This document shows positions 1 through 8,663 of a stretch of DNA of 44,685 nt, one piece after another. The position numbers and the translations under genes were made by a program. Origin of the DNA: Lentisphaerales bacterium. GTDB taxonomy: Bacteria; Verrucomicrobiota; Kiritimatiellia; JAUXFM01. Where the stretch lies: assembly GCA_030622955.1 (NCBI GenBank), contig JAUXFM010000008.1:1-44685 (forward strand), written 5' to 3'. How positions within the stretch are numbered: position 1 is the first letter of the stretch; each line of letters begins with the position of its first letter. Below the pieces are notes generated by a model. That model made no database searches. It had not been told where the DNA came from and saw only the letters and a list, made by a program, of their open reading frames with translations.

Positions 1-459
1 ATACAAGTCCTAGTGGAGAGTGGACAAACCTGCGGAATCGGAATTGAAGTAAAATATACCGAGCAGGATTATCCAATCGGGAAAACAGAATCAACCAATG
101 TGGACAACCATGATTCTTTGTACTGGAAAACCGCAAGAGCATCTGGATTTTTCCAAAACCCAGATGATGAAATGCTTGGGGTGGATGAATTTCGTCAAGT
201 TTGGAGAAATCATCTTCTCGGGTTAAAAATGATCCAAGTGGGTGATGTTGATGAGTTTTACTCCATCACCCTGTTTCCTGATGGGAACAACCATTTTCAT
301 CATGTAATTCCTGAATACATTTCCCAACTGAAAAATGAAGTACAATCATATTTGATTGGATGCACATTCGAGGAATTCATTTCAGCAATTCAAGGATCAC
401 CAGAATTTGATGAATGGAAGAATTGGCTGGGTAGAAGATATATAGTGGAGAATCTCTAA
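1..459 (+). CDS. PGN_0703-like putative restriction endonuclease, 3' part
   Basis: The frame is open from base 1, so the start lies upstream and the GTG at 13 is probably internal. About 152 C-terminal residues remain. The visible GIEVKYTE stretch looks like the E-x-K half of a PD-(D/E)XK nuclease core and resembles my recollection of the PGN_0703 family of putative restriction endonucleases; this is motif recognition, not a search. The family is thought to cut DNA, possibly as a stand-alone restriction or defence enzyme. The rest is soluble and rich in Glu, Asn and Phe. The gene is visibly more AT-rich than the genes to its right, which fits acquired DNA. Other PD-(D/E)XK nuclease families are possible. 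Confidence 0.6.
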   Translation: MQVLVESGQTCGIGIEVKYTEQDYPIGKTESTNVDNHDSLYWKTARASGFFQNPDDEMLGVDEFRQVWRNHLLGLKMIQVGDVDEFYSITLFPDGNNHFHHVIPEYISQLKNEVQSYLIGCTFEEFISAIQGSPEFDEWKNWLGRRYIVENL

Positions 460-484
460 CAACAAAATGCAAAGAAAACACGTC

Positions 485-763: not shown

Positions 764-1144
764 ATGAAACTCCGGACAATGTTTCTAGTTCTCGGGGTGG
801 CCTTAGCGGTCGCGATTGGTCTTGCCGTTGTCGCAAACCAACGCAGCGGGCACCGTGACTACACGACTATCGTCCATTTGGAGTACTTGTCCTGTGCCTT
901 GGAGGAGTACCGAATCGCGCAGGGCGAATACCCCACCCAAGCACTCCGGATTGCGCTTGGTGGCTACGCTCCCCCCGAACAGCCCCCCGATATTTGGCAG
1001 GATCAATGGGGTAACGATTTCCGGTATCAGAGAAGGGGCAAGTACAGATACCACTTCTACTCCCTTGGACCAGATGGCAAACCAGGCACGGGAGATGAGA
1101 TAGGAGAACATAGACCTAGGCGCACCCAACAACCAGCTCCATGA
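764..1144 (+). CDS. GspG-like (T2SSG C-terminal domain) membrane-anchored protein
   Basis: The 126-residue product has one N-terminal membrane helix (about residues 5-24) and then a short domain with the hallmarks of the C-terminal half of major pseudopilins: a YRIAQGEYPT start, an aromatic/Gly region around QDQWGNDFRY and the terminal SLGPDGKPGTGDEIGE loop, which binds calcium in GspG. The usual prepilin-peptidase site (Gly followed by a hydrophobic stretch with Glu5) is not visible, so it may be a membrane-tethered relative rather than a processed pilin. No other type II secretion gene adjoins it. Its last codons run through the R'' box of the attC site at 1124, typical of a gene carried on an integron cassette. 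A purine-rich GAAGAGG lies 12 nt before the ATG. Confidence 0.65.
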   Translation: MKLRTMFLVLGVALAVAIGLAVVANQRSGHRDYTTIVHLEYLSCALEEYRIAQGEYPTQALRIALGGYAPPEQPPDIWQDQWGNDFRYQRRGKYRYHFYSLGPDGKPGTGDEIGEHRPRRTQQPAP

Positions 1145-1201
1145 CGACTCCCATTGGCGCGCGGCCGCGCCAACGGGAGCGCATGATCTGAGGCGTTGGG
1201 C
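1124..1201 (+). repeat. Integron attC recombination site (59-base-element type)
   Basis: The outer boxes match the attC consensus. R'' is ACCCAAC at 1124-1130 (RYYYAAC) and R' is GTTGGGC at 1195-1201 (GTTRRRY). Between them is a nearly continuous imperfect palindrome: CTCCCATTGGCGCG at 1148-1161 pairs with CGCGCCAACGGGAG at 1166-1179 with one mismatch around a CGGC loop. Farther out, CAGCTCCATGACGA pairs with CGCATGATCTG, leaving three unpaired bases on the left arm only. Such asymmetric extrahelical bases are typical of attC hairpins. The GspG-like stop codon (1142-1144) lies inside the site and the next gene starts 7 nt after R'. No integrase gene or second attC is visible. Confidence 0.72.
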
Positions 1202-2752: not shown

Positions 2753-2792
2753 CAAGTGATCTTGATCGTTTATGATTTGAGGAAAATGCGAA

Positions 2793-4154
2793 GTGAACAT
2801 TCTTAGCGAAGTTCTTAAGCAGGATGTATTCCCGGCGCTTGGCTGCACTGAGCCGATTGCTACTGCCTACGCTGCCAGCGTCGCCGGGCAGAAGCTTGAT
2901 GGCAAGATTTGCGAAGTACACATATCGGTCGACCCGGGGGTGTACAAGAACGGTTTCGCCGTAACCATTCCCAATACCGGAAATCAAAGGGGGAACCTGA
3001 TAGCGGGTGTTCTTGGGGCACTCATTAAGCGCCCTGAGCTGAAGATGGAAATAATGAGTTGTGTTACCAAGGATATCCTTGAACAGGCAAGGAAACTCAT
3101 AACCGCTCACAAAGCAGACATCAGTTGTGACAGATCGAAGAAACAACTTTACATTGACGTGTGTCTTCGCACAGAAACGGGGTCTGCCAGAGCAGTCATT
3201 GAAGGCTCACACACCAATTTGGTCAGATTGGTGTGCAACGGCAAAGAATTTCTCACCCCCAATGATGCGCATTATCGCTCCAGTAGTGATGAGTTCAGAA
3301 CCACATTGAAAAATACCAGCGTGTCCGATCTTGTTGATATGGCTGAGCATATCGAGCGCCAGGATTGCAAATACATCAAGCGTGGAATTGATATGAATCT
3401 GCGCGTCGCAGAAGGAGGACGTTTGTTACACAAGGTCAGTTACTATATTTCCGAGTTGATCGAAAAGAAGCAGCGAGAGAATGATCTGTTCTCCTCCTGT
3501 GAAGTAGTGACCTCGTCGGCAGCGGATGCTCGAATGGGCGGGCTCAACCTTCCCGTTATGTCCAGTGGGGGAAGTGGAAACCAGGGCATTGTGGCGATCC
3601 TGGTGCCGTATCTCGTTGGCACACACTATAACGTAGAAGAAGGACTCATTATCCGCAGTATTGCATTGTCCCACTTGATGAACAGCTACATCAAGTGTTT
3701 CACGGGCGATCTATCTCCTCTGTGCGGGTGCGCAATTGCTGCAGGCGTCGGTGCGAGTGTTGCCATCGTTTATCAACGGGCAGGAAAAAATATGTCAAAA
3801 CTCACGTTAGCCGTGAATAACCTTGTGAGTGATCTGGGTGGGATGCTTTGCGACGGCGCCAAGGAGGGATGCGCTTTGAAAGTAGCGAGTTCAACCAATT
3901 CCGCAATACGTTCCGCACACATGGCGTTGAATGATCATGGCATCACGCAGATCGAGGGCTTTGTCGGGCGCACAGCGGAAGATACTATATATAACTTGAG
4001 CCAAATCGGCTCCATCGGGATGTCACGGGCAAACGACACAATGCTCGAAATAATGATAGAGAAATCTGCAGATCTGACCGATTCCGGGAAAAGCACGAAC
4101 GTGAATGTGGACGGCCCGCATGATCATAACAAGACGGATGCAAGCGCCAACTGA
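2793..4154 (+). CDS. cyuA: L-cysteine desulfidase (CyuA/CdsB, UPF0597 family)
   Basis: A 453-residue cytosolic enzyme that splits L-cysteine into sulfide, ammonia and pyruvate using an oxygen-sensitive 4Fe-4S cluster. Family marks are the N-terminal ALGCTEPIATAYA box (Cys18), the central SSGGSGNQGI loop, LSPLCGCAIAAG, and the C-terminal GMLCDGAKEGCALKVASST box with two conserved cysteines. The length is usual for the family. The start is the GTG at 2793, with TGAGGA 9 nt upstream. The last roughly 25 residues are polar and poorly conserved. It stands alone, without the transporter or Lrp-type regulator often found with cyuA. It fits an organism that spends time in anoxic conditions. Confidence in the family is high; the exact substrate is inferred. 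Confidence 0.85.
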   Translation: MNILSEVLKQDVFPALGCTEPIATAYAASVAGQKLDGKICEVHISVDPGVYKNGFAVTIPNTGNQRGNLIAGVLGALIKRPELKMEIMSCVTKDILEQARKLITAHKADISCDRSKKQLYIDVCLRTETGSARAVIEGSHTNLVRLVCNGKEFLTPNDAHYRSSSDEFRTTLKNTSVSDLVDMAEHIERQDCKYIKRGIDMNLRVAEGGRLLHKVSYYISELIEKKQRENDLFSSCEVVTSSAADARMGGLNLPVMSSGGSGNQGIVAILVPYLVGTHYNVEEGLIIRSIALSHLMNSYIKCFTGDLSPLCGCAIAAGVGASVAIVYQRAGKNMSKLTLAVNNLVSDLGGMLCDGAKEGCALKVASSTNSAIRSAHMALNDHGITQIEGFVGRTAEDTIYNLSQIGSIGMSRANDTMLEIMIEKSADLTDSGKSTNVNVDGPHDHNKTDASAN

Positions 4155-4196
4155 TAGCCGCGCCTGACCCGCAGCGTTCTGGGGACTTGATAATGG

Positions 4197-4353: not shown

Positions 4354-4743
4354 ATGGTTATGGTCGACACATCAGCCTGGATTGAATATCTCGACGGGAA
4401 AAGGTCTCGTGTCGTTCCTAAAGTCGATCAATGTCTTGAACGAGATCTTGTAGCCATCGGCGATCTTATATATTGTGAAGTCATGCAAGGCATTCGCTCG
4501 CCACGTGACCGAAGCCAGGTATCTTCTCTCCTGCTCTCTCTCCCTCAGTTCGACATGGTGGGATTTAGTATCGCCGAGAAGTCGGCAGCAAACTACCGAC
4601 TTCTCAAATCAAAAGGAGTTACTGTTCGTAAAACAATCGATGTCCTAATAGGAACATTTTGTGCTGAGCATGGGCTCCAAATCGTGCATCATGATTCTGA
4701 TTTCGACTTGATGGCAAAACAGATAGGCCTCGATATAATTTAG
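4354..4743 (+). CDS. vapC: VapC family PIN-domain ribonuclease toxin
   Basis: A 129-residue PIN domain of the usual VapC length. The acidic metal-binding set is visible: Asp5 in VDTSAW, Glu42 in IYCEVMQG, Asp96 in TIDVLIG and Asp114/Asp118 in HHDSDFDLM. VapC toxins cut RNA, often tRNA, and are held in check by VapB. It is preceded at 1-nt spacing by the VapB-like frame, so the two would be co-transcribed and translationally coupled; GAGAAGGG upstream of the ATG is a reasonable ribosome site. All catalytic positions are intact, which matters because the antitoxin looks damaged. A solo or cross-neutralised toxin is possible. Confidence 0.88.
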   Translation: MVMVDTSAWIEYLDGKRSRVVPKVDQCLERDLVAIGDLIYCEVMQGIRSPRDRSQVSSLLLSLPQFDMVGFSIAEKSAANYRLLKSKGVTVRKTIDVLIGTFCAEHGLQIVHHDSDFDLMAKQIGLDII

Positions 4744-4785: not shown

Positions 4786-6081
4786 TCACTGGTCCTTGTC
4801 CTTGCGAAGTCTTTTGCGCGCAGCGAACTCAGGAGCTTCCTTAACACAGGTGCCCAGCACTTTGAGTGATTTCATGAAGAGCTTCATGCCCTGGGCTTTC
4901 AGCTCTGCAGGCGCATCACCGACATTGTCCCAACCTTTCGCGTCAAGATCACCTGCTGGAATCTCCAGCTGTTCCCAATTCTTGAACAATCGGCCCCACT
5001 CACTGCCCAGAAGCTTGTGCACGATCTTCTGGTGCGTCGGATACCAGAAGGAGTCATGGTAGAGCACGCTCGCGATGTACGCCCAGGGTGCAAGGAAGGT
5101 CTTGAGCGACCATTCAAGTGGCTTCCTGAGCGGACCCCAATAGATCTTATGCTGCATCTTGCTGGCAAATGTCATCTTCTTGAATGGTCCCACGAAATTC
5201 CAATTCTCATTGGCGGCATCAACATCGCCGACTATTTCAATATCGCGCGGATCACCACAGCCCAACCCCTTCTCGTGTGCAAGCCGCACAAATTTGAGCC
5301 GCTTCATGGGATCGAACCCCATAATCTTTGCGGCCACCGCATCAATTGCAACCTGGTCTTTTGAAGCCAGTATGACGTTCTTCACATGTGGCACCATGCA
5401 ACGTGGGCCTGGCCCATCACCGGCAAATGTTCCATCCATGACGGCAAACAATCCGCTGTGGATCTTCTTCTGGATCATAAGCAGGTCGACAAGTGTTTCG
5501 TTGATGACTGGATGGGTCCAGTGTCGCTTCTCATTGAGCAGACCACCAAACGCATTCTTCATTGCACCCGTGGTGAACGTGAATACATGCGTCTTCACAG
5601 TCGGCAGGTGTATGATGTTCGAACCGATAAAATCTTTCGGGATCATGAATCCGTCAGGATAGACATCGTTGAGGACCATGAATTTGTCAGCGACATCTCC
5701 TACTGCATCCCGGACATTGATCCATTCAACCCCTGGTTCATAGAGATGCTTGTTATGCAGGCCGTGAGCGTTCACGACGTTGACCTGCTTGTTTTCCCGC
5801 TCGCCAAGATAGGAATCGATGACAACCGTCCTGTTATGACACCCGTTCATCTTGCCGGGTGAATAGCCATCCTTCTTCATCGCACGAATAACACCGTCGA
5901 GCTGCCATGGCGTTGTCGAGCAAGCTGGATAGAAGAAATGCCAGCTGATATTGATCTTGAGAGAGGTCTGCTTGTCCTTCGGCAGTGCCTCCTGGTAATC
6001 CGCCAGGTTCATCAGGCGGTGATAATCCTCAAGCACGGTTGCCGGGGACGTCCTCAGTATGGCTACTTTTGACTTTGACAT
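4786..6081 (-). CDS. DUF362 domain protein
   Basis: A 431-residue protein of the DUF362 type, a family known from uncharacterised and iron-sulfur proteins. Supporting stretches are LKINISWHFFYPACSTTPW (about residues 41-59), IIHLPTVKTHVFTFTTGAMKNAFGG and ASKDQVAIDAVAAKIMGFDP. No ferredoxin CxxCxxC motif is present, so this is the cluster-free form. The function is unknown; the Lys-Thr and Gly-rich segments suggest a ligand pocket. The start MSKSKVAILR at 6081 is preferred because the fold begins there. An upstream in-frame ATG at 6144 would add 21 residues and leave only 45 bp to the divergent gene. Neither has a clear Shine-Dalgarno sequence. Confidence 0.75.
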   Translation of the reverse strand: MSKSKVAILRTSPATVLEDYHRLMNLADYQEALPKDKQTSLKINISWHFFYPACSTTPWQLDGVIRAMKKDGYSPGKMNGCHNRTVVIDSYLGERENKQVNVVNAHGLHNKHLYEPGVEWINVRDAVGDVADKFMVLNDVYPDGFMIPKDFIGSNIIHLPTVKTHVFTFTTGAMKNAFGGLLNEKRHWTHPVINETLVDLLMIQKKIHSGLFAVMDGTFAGDGPGPRCMVPHVKNVILASKDQVAIDAVAAKIMGFDPMKRLKFVRLAHEKGLGCGDPRDIEIVGDVDAANENWNFVGPFKKMTFASKMQHKIYWGPLRKPLEWSLKTFLAPWAYIASVLYHDSFWYPTHQKIVHKLLGSEWGRLFKNWEQLEIPAGDLDAKGWDNVGDAPAELKAQGMKLFMKSLKVLGTCVKEAPEFAARKRLRKDKDQ

Positions 6082-6188
6082 GCGGAAGACAATAGCAGGG
6101 AACGAAATACCTGTCGAGAGACGAGCCACTTGAAAAGTAGGCATTATTTGTAGCGAATATTTGCCCGTTTATATATAGTCCTCTCGCT

Positions 6189-7097
6189 ATGAAACATACA
6201 CTCGTGATACTGGCTGCGGGGATCGGAAGAAGATTTGGGGGCATCAAGCAGATGGCACCCATTGGACCGTCGGGCGAATTCATCATCGATTACTCCATCT
6301 ATGATGCTGTCCGCGCCGGTTTTGACAAGGTGACTTTCGTAATATCGGCGGCCATTGAAGAGGATTTCAGAACCACCATGGGTGATCGTATTGCCGAACA
6401 TGTTGAGGTCGAGTACGTGCGCCAGGGTCTCGCCGATGTTCCACAGCCCTTTTCGCCGCCAGAAGGGCGTGAAAAACCCTGGGGAACGGGTCACGCAGTC
6501 CTAGCCTGCAGAAACACCGCCGCCGATGGTCCATTTGCCGTGATCAATGCCGACGATTTCTATGGCAGGGAATCTTACGAGCTGCTTTATCGATTTCTTT
6601 ACGACACCAAGACGGACCAATCCAAGTTCGCAATGGTAGCCTTCATCCTGCGCAACACGTTGTCGGATTCAGGCTCTGTCGCACGTGGCATCTCCTATGC
6701 AGGTGGTGACGGCAAACTCACTCACCTCGTTGAGCGTACAGAGATCATAAAAACCGATGAAGGCCCGCGCTTCCGTGTTAAGGGAGATGAATGGGGCAAG
6801 CTCACCGGGGACGAGTTGGTTTCAATGAACATGTGGGGATTCAAGCATTCGATCTTTCCCTTCCTTCAACATGAGTTTGAACGGTTTCTTGCGAAATACG
6901 GTGACACCGAGAAGGTCGAGTTCTTCTGCCCTTCGGTCGTTGACAAGATGATCGTCGACGGTGAAGCTACGGTGGACGTGCTCAAGACCCACAACGAATG
7001 GACCGGCATAACGTATCCTGAAGATCTCGACAAGGTAGTTAAACGTGTCAATGGTCTCATTGCCGACGGCGAATATCCGTCATCCCTTTGGGCATAG
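6189..7097 (+). CDS. Sugar-nucleotidyltransferase family protein
   Basis: A 302-residue nucleotidyltransferase with a GT-A-like fold. The N-terminal signature LAAGIGRRFGGIKQ (residues 8-21) is the NTP-binding loop, and NADDFYG (120-126) carries the metal-binding aspartates. SMNMWGFK and the VFVP-like FFCPSVVDKM region belong to the C-terminal half. Such enzymes join NTP to a sugar phosphate, but the sugar cannot be read from sequence; no sugar-pathway neighbour is present. The ATG at 6189 lies 15 bp after TATATA-rich DNA (6170-6177), with TTGTAG at 6148 as a possible -35 box. It is transcribed away from the DUF362 gene and ends at a hairpin. Confidence 0.75.
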   Translation: MKHTLVILAAGIGRRFGGIKQMAPIGPSGEFIIDYSIYDAVRAGFDKVTFVISAAIEEDFRTTMGDRIAEHVEVEYVRQGLADVPQPFSPPEGREKPWGTGHAVLACRNTAADGPFAVINADDFYGRESYELLYRFLYDTKTDQSKFAMVAFILRNTLSDSGSVARGISYAGGDGKLTHLVERTEIIKTDEGPRFRVKGDEWGKLTGDELVSMNMWGFKHSIFPFLQHEFERFLAKYGDTEKVEFFCPSVVDKMIVDGEATVDVLKTHNEWTGITYPEDLDKVVKRVNGLIADGEYPSSLWA

Positions 7098-7115
7098 CCT
7101 GCCCTCTCGGGCAGG
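7098..7115 (+). terminator. GC-rich hairpin after the nucleotidyltransferase gene
   Basis: CCTGCCC and GGGCAGG form a perfect 7-bp stem with a TCTC loop immediately after the stop codon. No T-run follows. The remaining 230 bp up to the next gene (7116-7349) show no gene that I can support. Confidence 0.4.
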
Positions 7116-7349
7116 TCCAGGAAGAACAAACGCTCAACACTGAACATCCAAGGGAAGCAACCAGACCGTTTCTGCCGATTCCTGCTTCGCACAAGACTTC
7201 GGAGCTCAAGAGGACAAGTTACGAGGTGCCACTGCATGCCAAGCACCTGTCTGCCCGCCGAAGGCGCGCTTCATACATCCCATGGAGCACATTCAAGTCC
7301 AGTCCCGAGAACTCACCAAACACAATCCATCCTTACGGTAGGCAAAGCC

Positions 7350-8663
7350 CTATAAGCGTGCAAGCAGAGCATCCTTGAGTGACCTGCCGCCCTCATGGTC
7401 CTTGTAGGCATAACGAACACGCACAGCCGGCTTGTCGATCGAGAGCAATGCCGGCAGATCTATCGGCGTACCGAACAACACGACATCACAGTCGCAACTG
7501 TTAATCGTAGCTTCGAGCTCCTGGACCTGCTTATCACTGTAACCCATGGCGGGCAGGACTCGTTTCACATGGCCGTACTTCTCAAGTGTGTCCGCGATGC
7601 TGCCTACCGCACAGGAGTGCGGATCAACGACTTCGCTCGCGCCATACTGCTTCGCAGCCAGCGTCGCAGCTCCAAACGGCATGCCACCGTGTGTCACTGT
7701 TGGCCCATCTTCTACCGCCAATACGCGCTTCCCTTCAATGAGCGAAGGCTCTTCAACTACTATGTTAGAATCTGCCAAGACAATCTCGGCACCAGGGTTG
7801 TTGGCCGTGATGTTCTTCCGCACGATTTCAATCTGTTCCGGTGTCGCGCTGTCGACCTTGTTGATGAGCGCAATATCCGCCATGAGCATATTCGTTTCGC
7901 TTGGATAGTAGAGAAGCTCATGACCGGCACGATGCGGATCGAACACTACTATGCTGACATACGGCTTATAGAAAGGCATATCGTTGTTCCCGCCATCCCA
8001 GATGACAACATCGGCCTCTTTCTCTGCTTCGCGCAGTATCTTTTCATAATCTACTCCGGCATAAACGACTATCCCCTCATCCACCAGCGGCTCATATTCT
8101 TCCCGCTCTTCAATGGTGCACTTATGCTTGGCGAAATCATCGTAGGAATCGAACCTCTGAACGACCTGCTCCTCAAGATCGCCATAAGGCATGGGATGCC
8201 GCACAGCCACGGCCTTCTTCCCCTGCTCTTTCAGGATATGAAAGACTTTGCGGGCCGTTTGCGATTTCCCGCACCCCGTACGTACCGCACAGATCGAAAT
8301 GACCGGCTTTATTGATTCCAACATGGTCTCTTCCGCGCTGAGCAGCGCGAACCTTGCCCCTTCAGATGCGACCAGGGCCGAAACATGCATGACCTGATCA
8401 TAGGTAACGTCGCTATAGGCGAACACCACAAGATCGGCCTTATGCTGCCTGATCAGCTTGACCAGGTCGGCCATTGGGTGAATACCAATACCATCGGGAT
8501 AGAGCTTGCCTGCGAGCTCAGGAGCAAATCGACGATTATCGATGTCCGGTATCTGTGTCGCGGTGAATGCTACCACATCGTATCTCGGGTTGTCCCTGAA
8601 GCAGGTATTGAAGTTATGAAAATCCCTGCCACCGGCACCCACTATTATTACTCGCTCCGCCAT
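7350..8663 (-). CDS. Cyclic 2,3-diphosphoglycerate synthetase-like P-loop protein (COG2403 type)
   Basis: A 437-residue protein. Residues 1-110 form a Rossmann-like domain (RVIIVGAGGRDFHNFN), followed by a P-loop NTPase domain with AVRTGCGKSQ (126-135) and the Asp/metal stretch DVVIWDGGNNDMPF. This arrangement fits the COG2403 group related to archaeal cyclic 2,3-diphosphoglycerate synthetase. In bacteria its role is not established. It lies last in a three-gene operon after rocD and arcC (20 bp behind arcC), so a role in carbamoyl-phosphate, ornithine or phosphoryl metabolism is likely but inferred. It could instead be an ATP-grasp-independent phosphotransferase of another substrate. The start has a purine-rich GAGGGTAAC just upstream. 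Confidence 0.7.
   Translation of the reverse strand: MAERVIIVGAGGRDFHNFNTCFRDNPRYDVVAFTATQIPDIDNRRFAPELAGKLYPDGIGIHPMADLVKLIRQHKADLVVFAYSDVTYDQVMHVSALVASEGARFALLSAEETMLESIKPVISICAVRTGCGKSQTARKVFHILKEQGKKAVAVRHPMPYGDLEEQVVQRFDSYDDFAKHKCTIEEREEYEPLVDEGIVVYAGVDYEKILREAEKEADVVIWDGGNNDMPFYKPYVSIVVFDPHRAGHELLYYPSETNMLMADIALINKVDSATPEQIEIVRKNITANNPGAEIVLADSNIVVEEPSLIEGKRVLAVEDGPTVTHGGMPFGAATLAAKQYGASEVVDPHSCAVGSIADTLEKYGHVKRVLPAMGYSDKQVQELEATINSCDCDVVLFGTPIDLPALLSIDKPAVRVRYAYKDHEGGRSLKDALLARL

Follow-up and report, generated by a model that had tools for sequence, protein, structure and literature searches.

Sequence evidence for an attC site within an integrase-less stretch of chromosomal integron array in a Lentisphaerales genome

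Sedentary chromosomal integrons, composed of intI, attI and arrays of attC sites, are on record in Verrucomicrobiota among other phyla (PMC8618304). A cluster of attC sites lacking an integron integrase is termed a CALIN in IntegronFinder, and the same paper notes that integrons get broken up in draft assemblies (PMC9024848). The hallmarks of an attC site are an R'' box of the form RYYYAAC, an R' box of the form GTTRRRY, a length of 57–142 nt, a hairpin and extrahelical bases (PMC2727003). The DNA considered here (the window) is a stretch of 44,685 nt that makes up the entire contig C179 of a Lentisphaerales MAG. Judged by its sequence, segment 1124–1201 of the window is almost certainly a bona fide attC site, and the leading 4.2 kb of the contig are, with the same confidence, part of a chromosomal integron array, a part that contains no integrase.

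This array is like sedentary chromosomal integrons in the anatomy of its attC sites, its same-strand tandem cassettes, the stop codons inside attC and the complementary cassette ends, and the MAG adds an attI-like site beside a divergent intI as well as toxin–antitoxin cassettes. It is unlike them in that the cassettes are long (about 1.4–1.6 kb), with metabolic or ATPase cargo, and in that an attI-like platform is found three times in one MAG, two of the copies having a broken intI. Contig C179 resembles a CALIN in carrying at least two attC sites close together and no integrase; unlike in a CALIN, the absence of the integrase may reflect only an assembly break, and integrase ends are present elsewhere in the bin. 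With the attC sites of class 1 cassettes (aadA, catB3, qac; resistance plasmids) the site at 1124–1201, attC1, shares the order R''-spacer-L''-terminal stem-L'-spacer-R', whereas its spacer and L-box sequences are divergent enough to be missed by our covariance model R1.

attC1 is an imperfect palindrome of 78 nt, inside the range of 57–142 nt (PMC2727003), that opens with R'' ACCCAAC (1124–1130) and closes with R' GTTGGGC (1195–1201). The R boxes fit the RYYYAAC/GTTRRRY consensus and the spacers are of 9 and 9 nt. On the bottom strand a single hairpin, variable in its terminal stem, forms at −29.5 kcal/mol, versus a mean of −14.7 kcal/mol for shuffled sequences (z −6.05, with 0 of 200 shuffles equally good; z −5.0 with flanks included). 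In the minimum-energy fold, the central spacer aside, four single-base bulges lie on the R''-L'' arm and one on the opposite arm, an asymmetry that, in this predicted structure, matches the polarity expected when the bottom strand is the recombinogenic one. ORF 764–1144 has its stop codon within attC1; an ATG follows at 1208, seven positions after the last base of R'. The earlier note on this DNA had proposed an attC site from the two boxes flanking a palindrome with asymmetric bulges and from the cassette-like placement of the genes; these observations hold, and the identity of the site is borne out by the hairpin, by the score of 29.2 bits with our second covariance model, R2, and by sister sites. 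The checks that it had named, folding of the bottom strand and scoring with an attC covariance model, thus came out in favour of its proposal, the latter with R2 on the predicted strand.

A strict scan for R boxes combined with a hairpin picks up attC1 at −29.5 kcal/mol; applied to reversed control sequence, scans of the same kind gave no matches in 0.53 Mb and three in 0.92 Mb. The R boxes alone carry no weight, since the pattern CCAAC...GTTGG, at 47 sites on each strand of the genome, is rarer than in the reversed control (96). A DNA similarity search of attC1 against the rest of the genome returned nothing informative, and an Rfam search of the window returned only one tRNA. The nine bases that open attC1 (1122–1130) are also found at 752–760, past the stop of ORF 467–736 (GCACCCAAC); the attC model has no match there, and the motif is possibly a remnant of another cassette end.

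The array on C179 comprises three predicted attC sites, all on the + strand and spaced by less than 4 kb. Each of them overlaps an ORF at its 3' end, and the third site is weak. The features of this part of the contig are as follows.

1–459, + strand: PD-(D/E)XK nuclease gene (PDDEXK_13 / REase-ARP; Pfam PF20796, E 3e-28), of which the contig end leaves the 3' part; carried by the leftmost cassette
454–460, + strand: R'' box CTCTAAC of the leftmost cassette, overlapping the nuclease stop codon; exact complement of the junction GTTAGAG, between attI-like site and cassette, on contig C161
467–736, + strand: ORF of 89 aa, no family match
764–1144, + strand: ORF of 126 aa, GspG-like pseudopilin-type protein (Pfam T2SSG, E 2.8e-9; TIGR01710 43.8 bits, under the cut-off of 88.85)
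1124–1201, + strand: attC1, predicted (R2 29.2 bits, E 3.4e-4; hairpin z −6.05)
1196–2768, + strand: predicted gene cassette of 1573 bp, bounded by two G^TT cleavage points
1208–1438, + strand: ORF of 76 aa without a family match, encoding a small, hydrophobic protein of membrane-like type
1450–2733, + strand: ORF of 427 aa, AAA_16/AAA_22 P-loop ATPase (Pfam AAA_16, E 3e-8; AAA_22, E 2e-6); stop codon within attC2
2701–2774, + strand: attC2, predicted (R2 14.8 bits over 2701–2773; hairpin −20.8 kcal/mol, z −6.34); the partner rule described below concurs
2769–4176, + strand: predicted gene cassette of ~1.41 kb, from the attC2 cleavage point to the attC3 cleavage point
2793–4154, + strand: ORF of 453 aa, serine dehydratase alpha-chain family (SDH_alpha; Pfam PF03313, E 9.5e-46); stop codon within attC3
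4124–4182, + strand: attC3, predicted (R2 21.5 bits, E 0.012)
4354–4743, + strand: VapC toxin gene (NCBIfam NF047959, 137.6 bits), just past the array

The motif CTCTAAC at 454–460 is the sole occurrence in the window on both strands, and no hairpin was found downstream of it; beyond the R'' box, the attC site of the leftmost cassette is lost or degenerate. The hairpin of attC3 is on par with shuffles (z −0.44), and attC3 is probably a weak or decaying site, the final one of the array. No attC site was found in the window downstream of the VapC gene, which may lie outside any cassette. The SDH_alpha gene is present in one copy only in the MAG, and among the ORFs of the window's cassettes PADLOC detected no credible defence gene. 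The earlier note had suggested that the array may continue to the left, and the nuclease cassette is indeed cut by the contig end; its picture needs amending in that the array also extends to the right, to about 4182. A search for sister sites recovers attC2 and attC3, both missed by the note, in addition to those on other contigs of the MAG.

Two attC covariance models were built within this analysis. R1 was made from 26 sites, drawn in equal numbers from class 1 plasmid integrons and chromosomal integrons; it detects arrays in many genomes, yet scores attC1 at 1.9 bits or less, which places attC1 outside the classical sequence range. R2 was built on the 98 matches of R1, six of them from other contigs of the same MAG and none from the window. 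It scores attC1 at 29.2 bits on the expected strand, with E-values (3e-4 for the window, 0.02 for the whole genome) that are rough and come from a model not wholly independent, given the six same-MAG sites in its training set. With R2, 4124–4182 scores 21.5 bits and 2701–2773 scores 14.8 bits, all three matches being on the + strand; scores in the array-free remainder of the window reach at most 11.7 bits, and R2 had no matches at E up to 10 in a control of 81.5 kb taken from other DNA of the MAG.

In an excised cassette, the cassette's own 5' end completes R', so that the R'' box of a site should pair with the R' box of the preceding site. The ends of cassette 1196–2768, (G)TTGGGC and R'' GCCCAAC (2701–2707), are complementary at 7/7 positions. 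Among the same-class arrays found by the models, this partner rule is exact in 17 of 22 neighbouring attC pairs, whereas 5000 shuffles gave 2.3 exact pairs on average and never more than 8; for the MAG itself the count is 10 of 12, a biased figure as some of the sites were located by that rule. Cassette 2769–4176 has the ends GTTTATGA and TCATAAC, whose complementarity requires that a single T be counted as surplus. Mismatches of one T, extra or missing, at the cleavage point were observed in the window (2768–2775 and 4124–4130) and at cassette junctions on contig C118 (locus L176, about 2355–2370 and 3393–3400); such differences may be assembly errors or recombination scars.

The window, that is all of C179, contains no integron integrase, in agreement with the earlier note; integrase ends were located at the edges of C90 and C53. 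A search of the whole MAG with PF00589 (tyrosine recombinase) gave no match, which is explained by the breaking up of the integrase at the ends of contigs; its pieces were recovered with TIGR02249 and a same-class IntI as queries, and no intact integrase gene is assembled in the MAG. The C90 array (L193, C90:30000–38245) has a canonical integron head: an integrase start, cut by the right edge of the contig, stands beside an attI-like site (CCTATACAACGTT, joined to CGGC), after which come about six attC sites on the strand opposite to the integrase start. The cassettes there carry an uncharacterized 178-aa ORF, a HigB/HigA-like pair, an alpha-L-fucosidase and a small lipoprotein-like ORF. C53 opens with an integrase C-terminus at the contig edge. 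Matches to attC were also found on C23, C36, C37, C42, C51, C118, C157 and C188, weak on C188 and on part of C37. The earlier note would have abandoned its proposal had there been no attC model match and neither an integrase nor sister attC sites within some 50 kb; R2 matches attC1, and elsewhere in the same MAG there are integrase ends and sister attC sites, on C90, C53 and these eight further contigs.

The attI-like junction CCTATACAACGTT is found three times in the MAG, on C90, C23 and C161, all separate contigs from C179. On the C23 platform (L190, 9642–10563) intI is reduced to an N-terminal piece, and on that of C161 (L218, about 510–900) it is almost gone; C54 (L060, 10659–11036) has an integrase fragment with an early stop. 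The left end of C161 presents the junction GTTAGAG, of which CTCTAAC in the window (454–460) is the exact complement, followed by the 5' part of a related PD-(D/E)XK gene. The genes of C161 and C179 overlap by 91 nt at 75% identity, too low for the two contigs to be joined, and may be two copies or come from two strains. In genomes of the same class full-length IntI is present, in several with adjoining arrays, and 25 of 57 such genomes have an integrase above the TIGR02249 cut-off. Many same-class integrases (L001–L020) sit in open frames of 400–580 codons, and that of L055 (4618–5928) has 436 aa with an N-terminal extension. For one same-class IntI the best-matching named integrase of its own kind comes from a MAG of Kiritimatiellae (64% identity), a single match that suggests class Kiritimatiellia, and with it Verrucomicrobiota, for the present MAG.

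On sequence grounds, the array reading is supported by the anatomy of the site, the tandem sites, the complementary ends, the attI-like sites, the sister arrays and the integrase ends in the MAG. Counter-evidence consists of the R1 score of at most 1.9 bits, the partial dependence of R2 on sites of this MAG, the insignificant hairpin of attC3, the degenerate leftmost attC site and the failure of the assembly to yield an intact integrase gene or to join C179 to one. Hairpins abound in the intergenic DNA of bacteria, and attC1 escapes the class-1-type model R1, which could mean that a terminator or another imperfect palindrome resembles an attC site by chance. We considered this very improbable and rejected it: the hairpin has no T-run, the R boxes have consensus and spacing, R2 gives 29 bits, two more sites lie at ORF ends, the ends of cassette 1196–2768 are exactly complementary, and the same genome has attI-like sites, integrase ends and arrays. 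The array could also come from an organism other than the owner of the C90/C53 integrase, through a contaminant contig, as the contamination estimate of 4.1% for the MAG would allow and as the bin's two PD-(D/E)XK cassettes, one diverged from the other and suggestive of mixed strains or organisms, would favour. This is unlikely, given that the leftmost R'' of the window exactly complements the attI junction on C161, a contig of the same bin, and that attI-like sequence of one type is shared by three contigs of the bin.

The array may, moreover, be a CALIN, severed from its integrase by rearrangement or by integrase loss, with cassettes that would be mobile only with IntI supplied in trans. Such a scenario is a version of the array reading and compatible with it, and we give it about an even chance. 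The window without integrase, the loss of nearly all of intI at the C161 attI-like site, the retention of its N-terminal piece only at the C23 platform and the first cassette of C161, which is of the same kind as the window's left-end cassette, all point this way. Against this, C179 is simply cut at its left end, so the missing integrase may equally reflect an assembly break, and C161 and C179 are not one molecule, their common 91 nt being only 75% identical.

Under the array reading, the single-stranded bottom strand of attC1 would fold into a hairpin in which the bulged bases of the R''-L'' arm direct IntI to the proper strand. The integrase would then cut R' between G and TT, and the cut site could recombine with another attC site (excision) or with attI (insertion), whereby cassettes of an ORF plus an attC site would travel as circles. 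This mechanism is established for integrons, and we infer it for the array on C179.

The kind of element is well known; what is unusual is some of the cassette cargo in this genome, namely sulfatases and a fucosidase. In the window the predicted cassettes carry a GspG-like protein, a small membrane-like protein together with an AAA ATPase, and an SDH_alpha-family enzyme. The earlier note had found GspG-like and tiny membrane proteins unfamiliar as cargo; both are there, but the cargo is not confined to small proteins, as the ATPase and the enzyme show. Sulfatase genes adjoin attC sites or lie between them on C42 (L174, 1963–3659), C118 (L176, 166–1730) and C36 (L178, about 5800–7381); the C118 sulfatase cassette has exactly complementary ends, and C42 also has a weak GH43 match. 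The MAG has 21 sulfatase matches, and 3 of 21 lie beside detected attC sites, which limits the association to part of the repertoire. In a metagenome survey, carbohydrate and amino-acid metabolism was strongly under-represented in integrons, carbohydrate genes being the most under-represented class (odds ratio 0.158; PMC7370490). Our literature search, of partial coverage, found no paper pairing integrons with sulfatase cassettes and none treating integrons in Kiritimatiellae in substance.

We tentatively propose, as a possibility that we hold to be rather doubtful, a multi-platform integron whose three attI-like platforms, two of them without a working integrase, would be served in trans by one IntI and would stock cassettes for the breakdown of sulfated polysaccharides (sulfatases, alpha-L-fucosidase, GH43-like protein).

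The present analysis contributes, from a lineage without cultured members, a chromosomal integron in fragments. It also shows that an attC model half made of clinical cassettes can overlook real sites that come to light with a broader model. Part of the cargo (sulfatases, fucosidase, SDH_alpha enzyme, AAA ATPase) belongs to classes reported to be rare in cassettes, and this makes the genome a starting point for the question of whether enzymes of polysaccharide degradation are shuffled by integrons.
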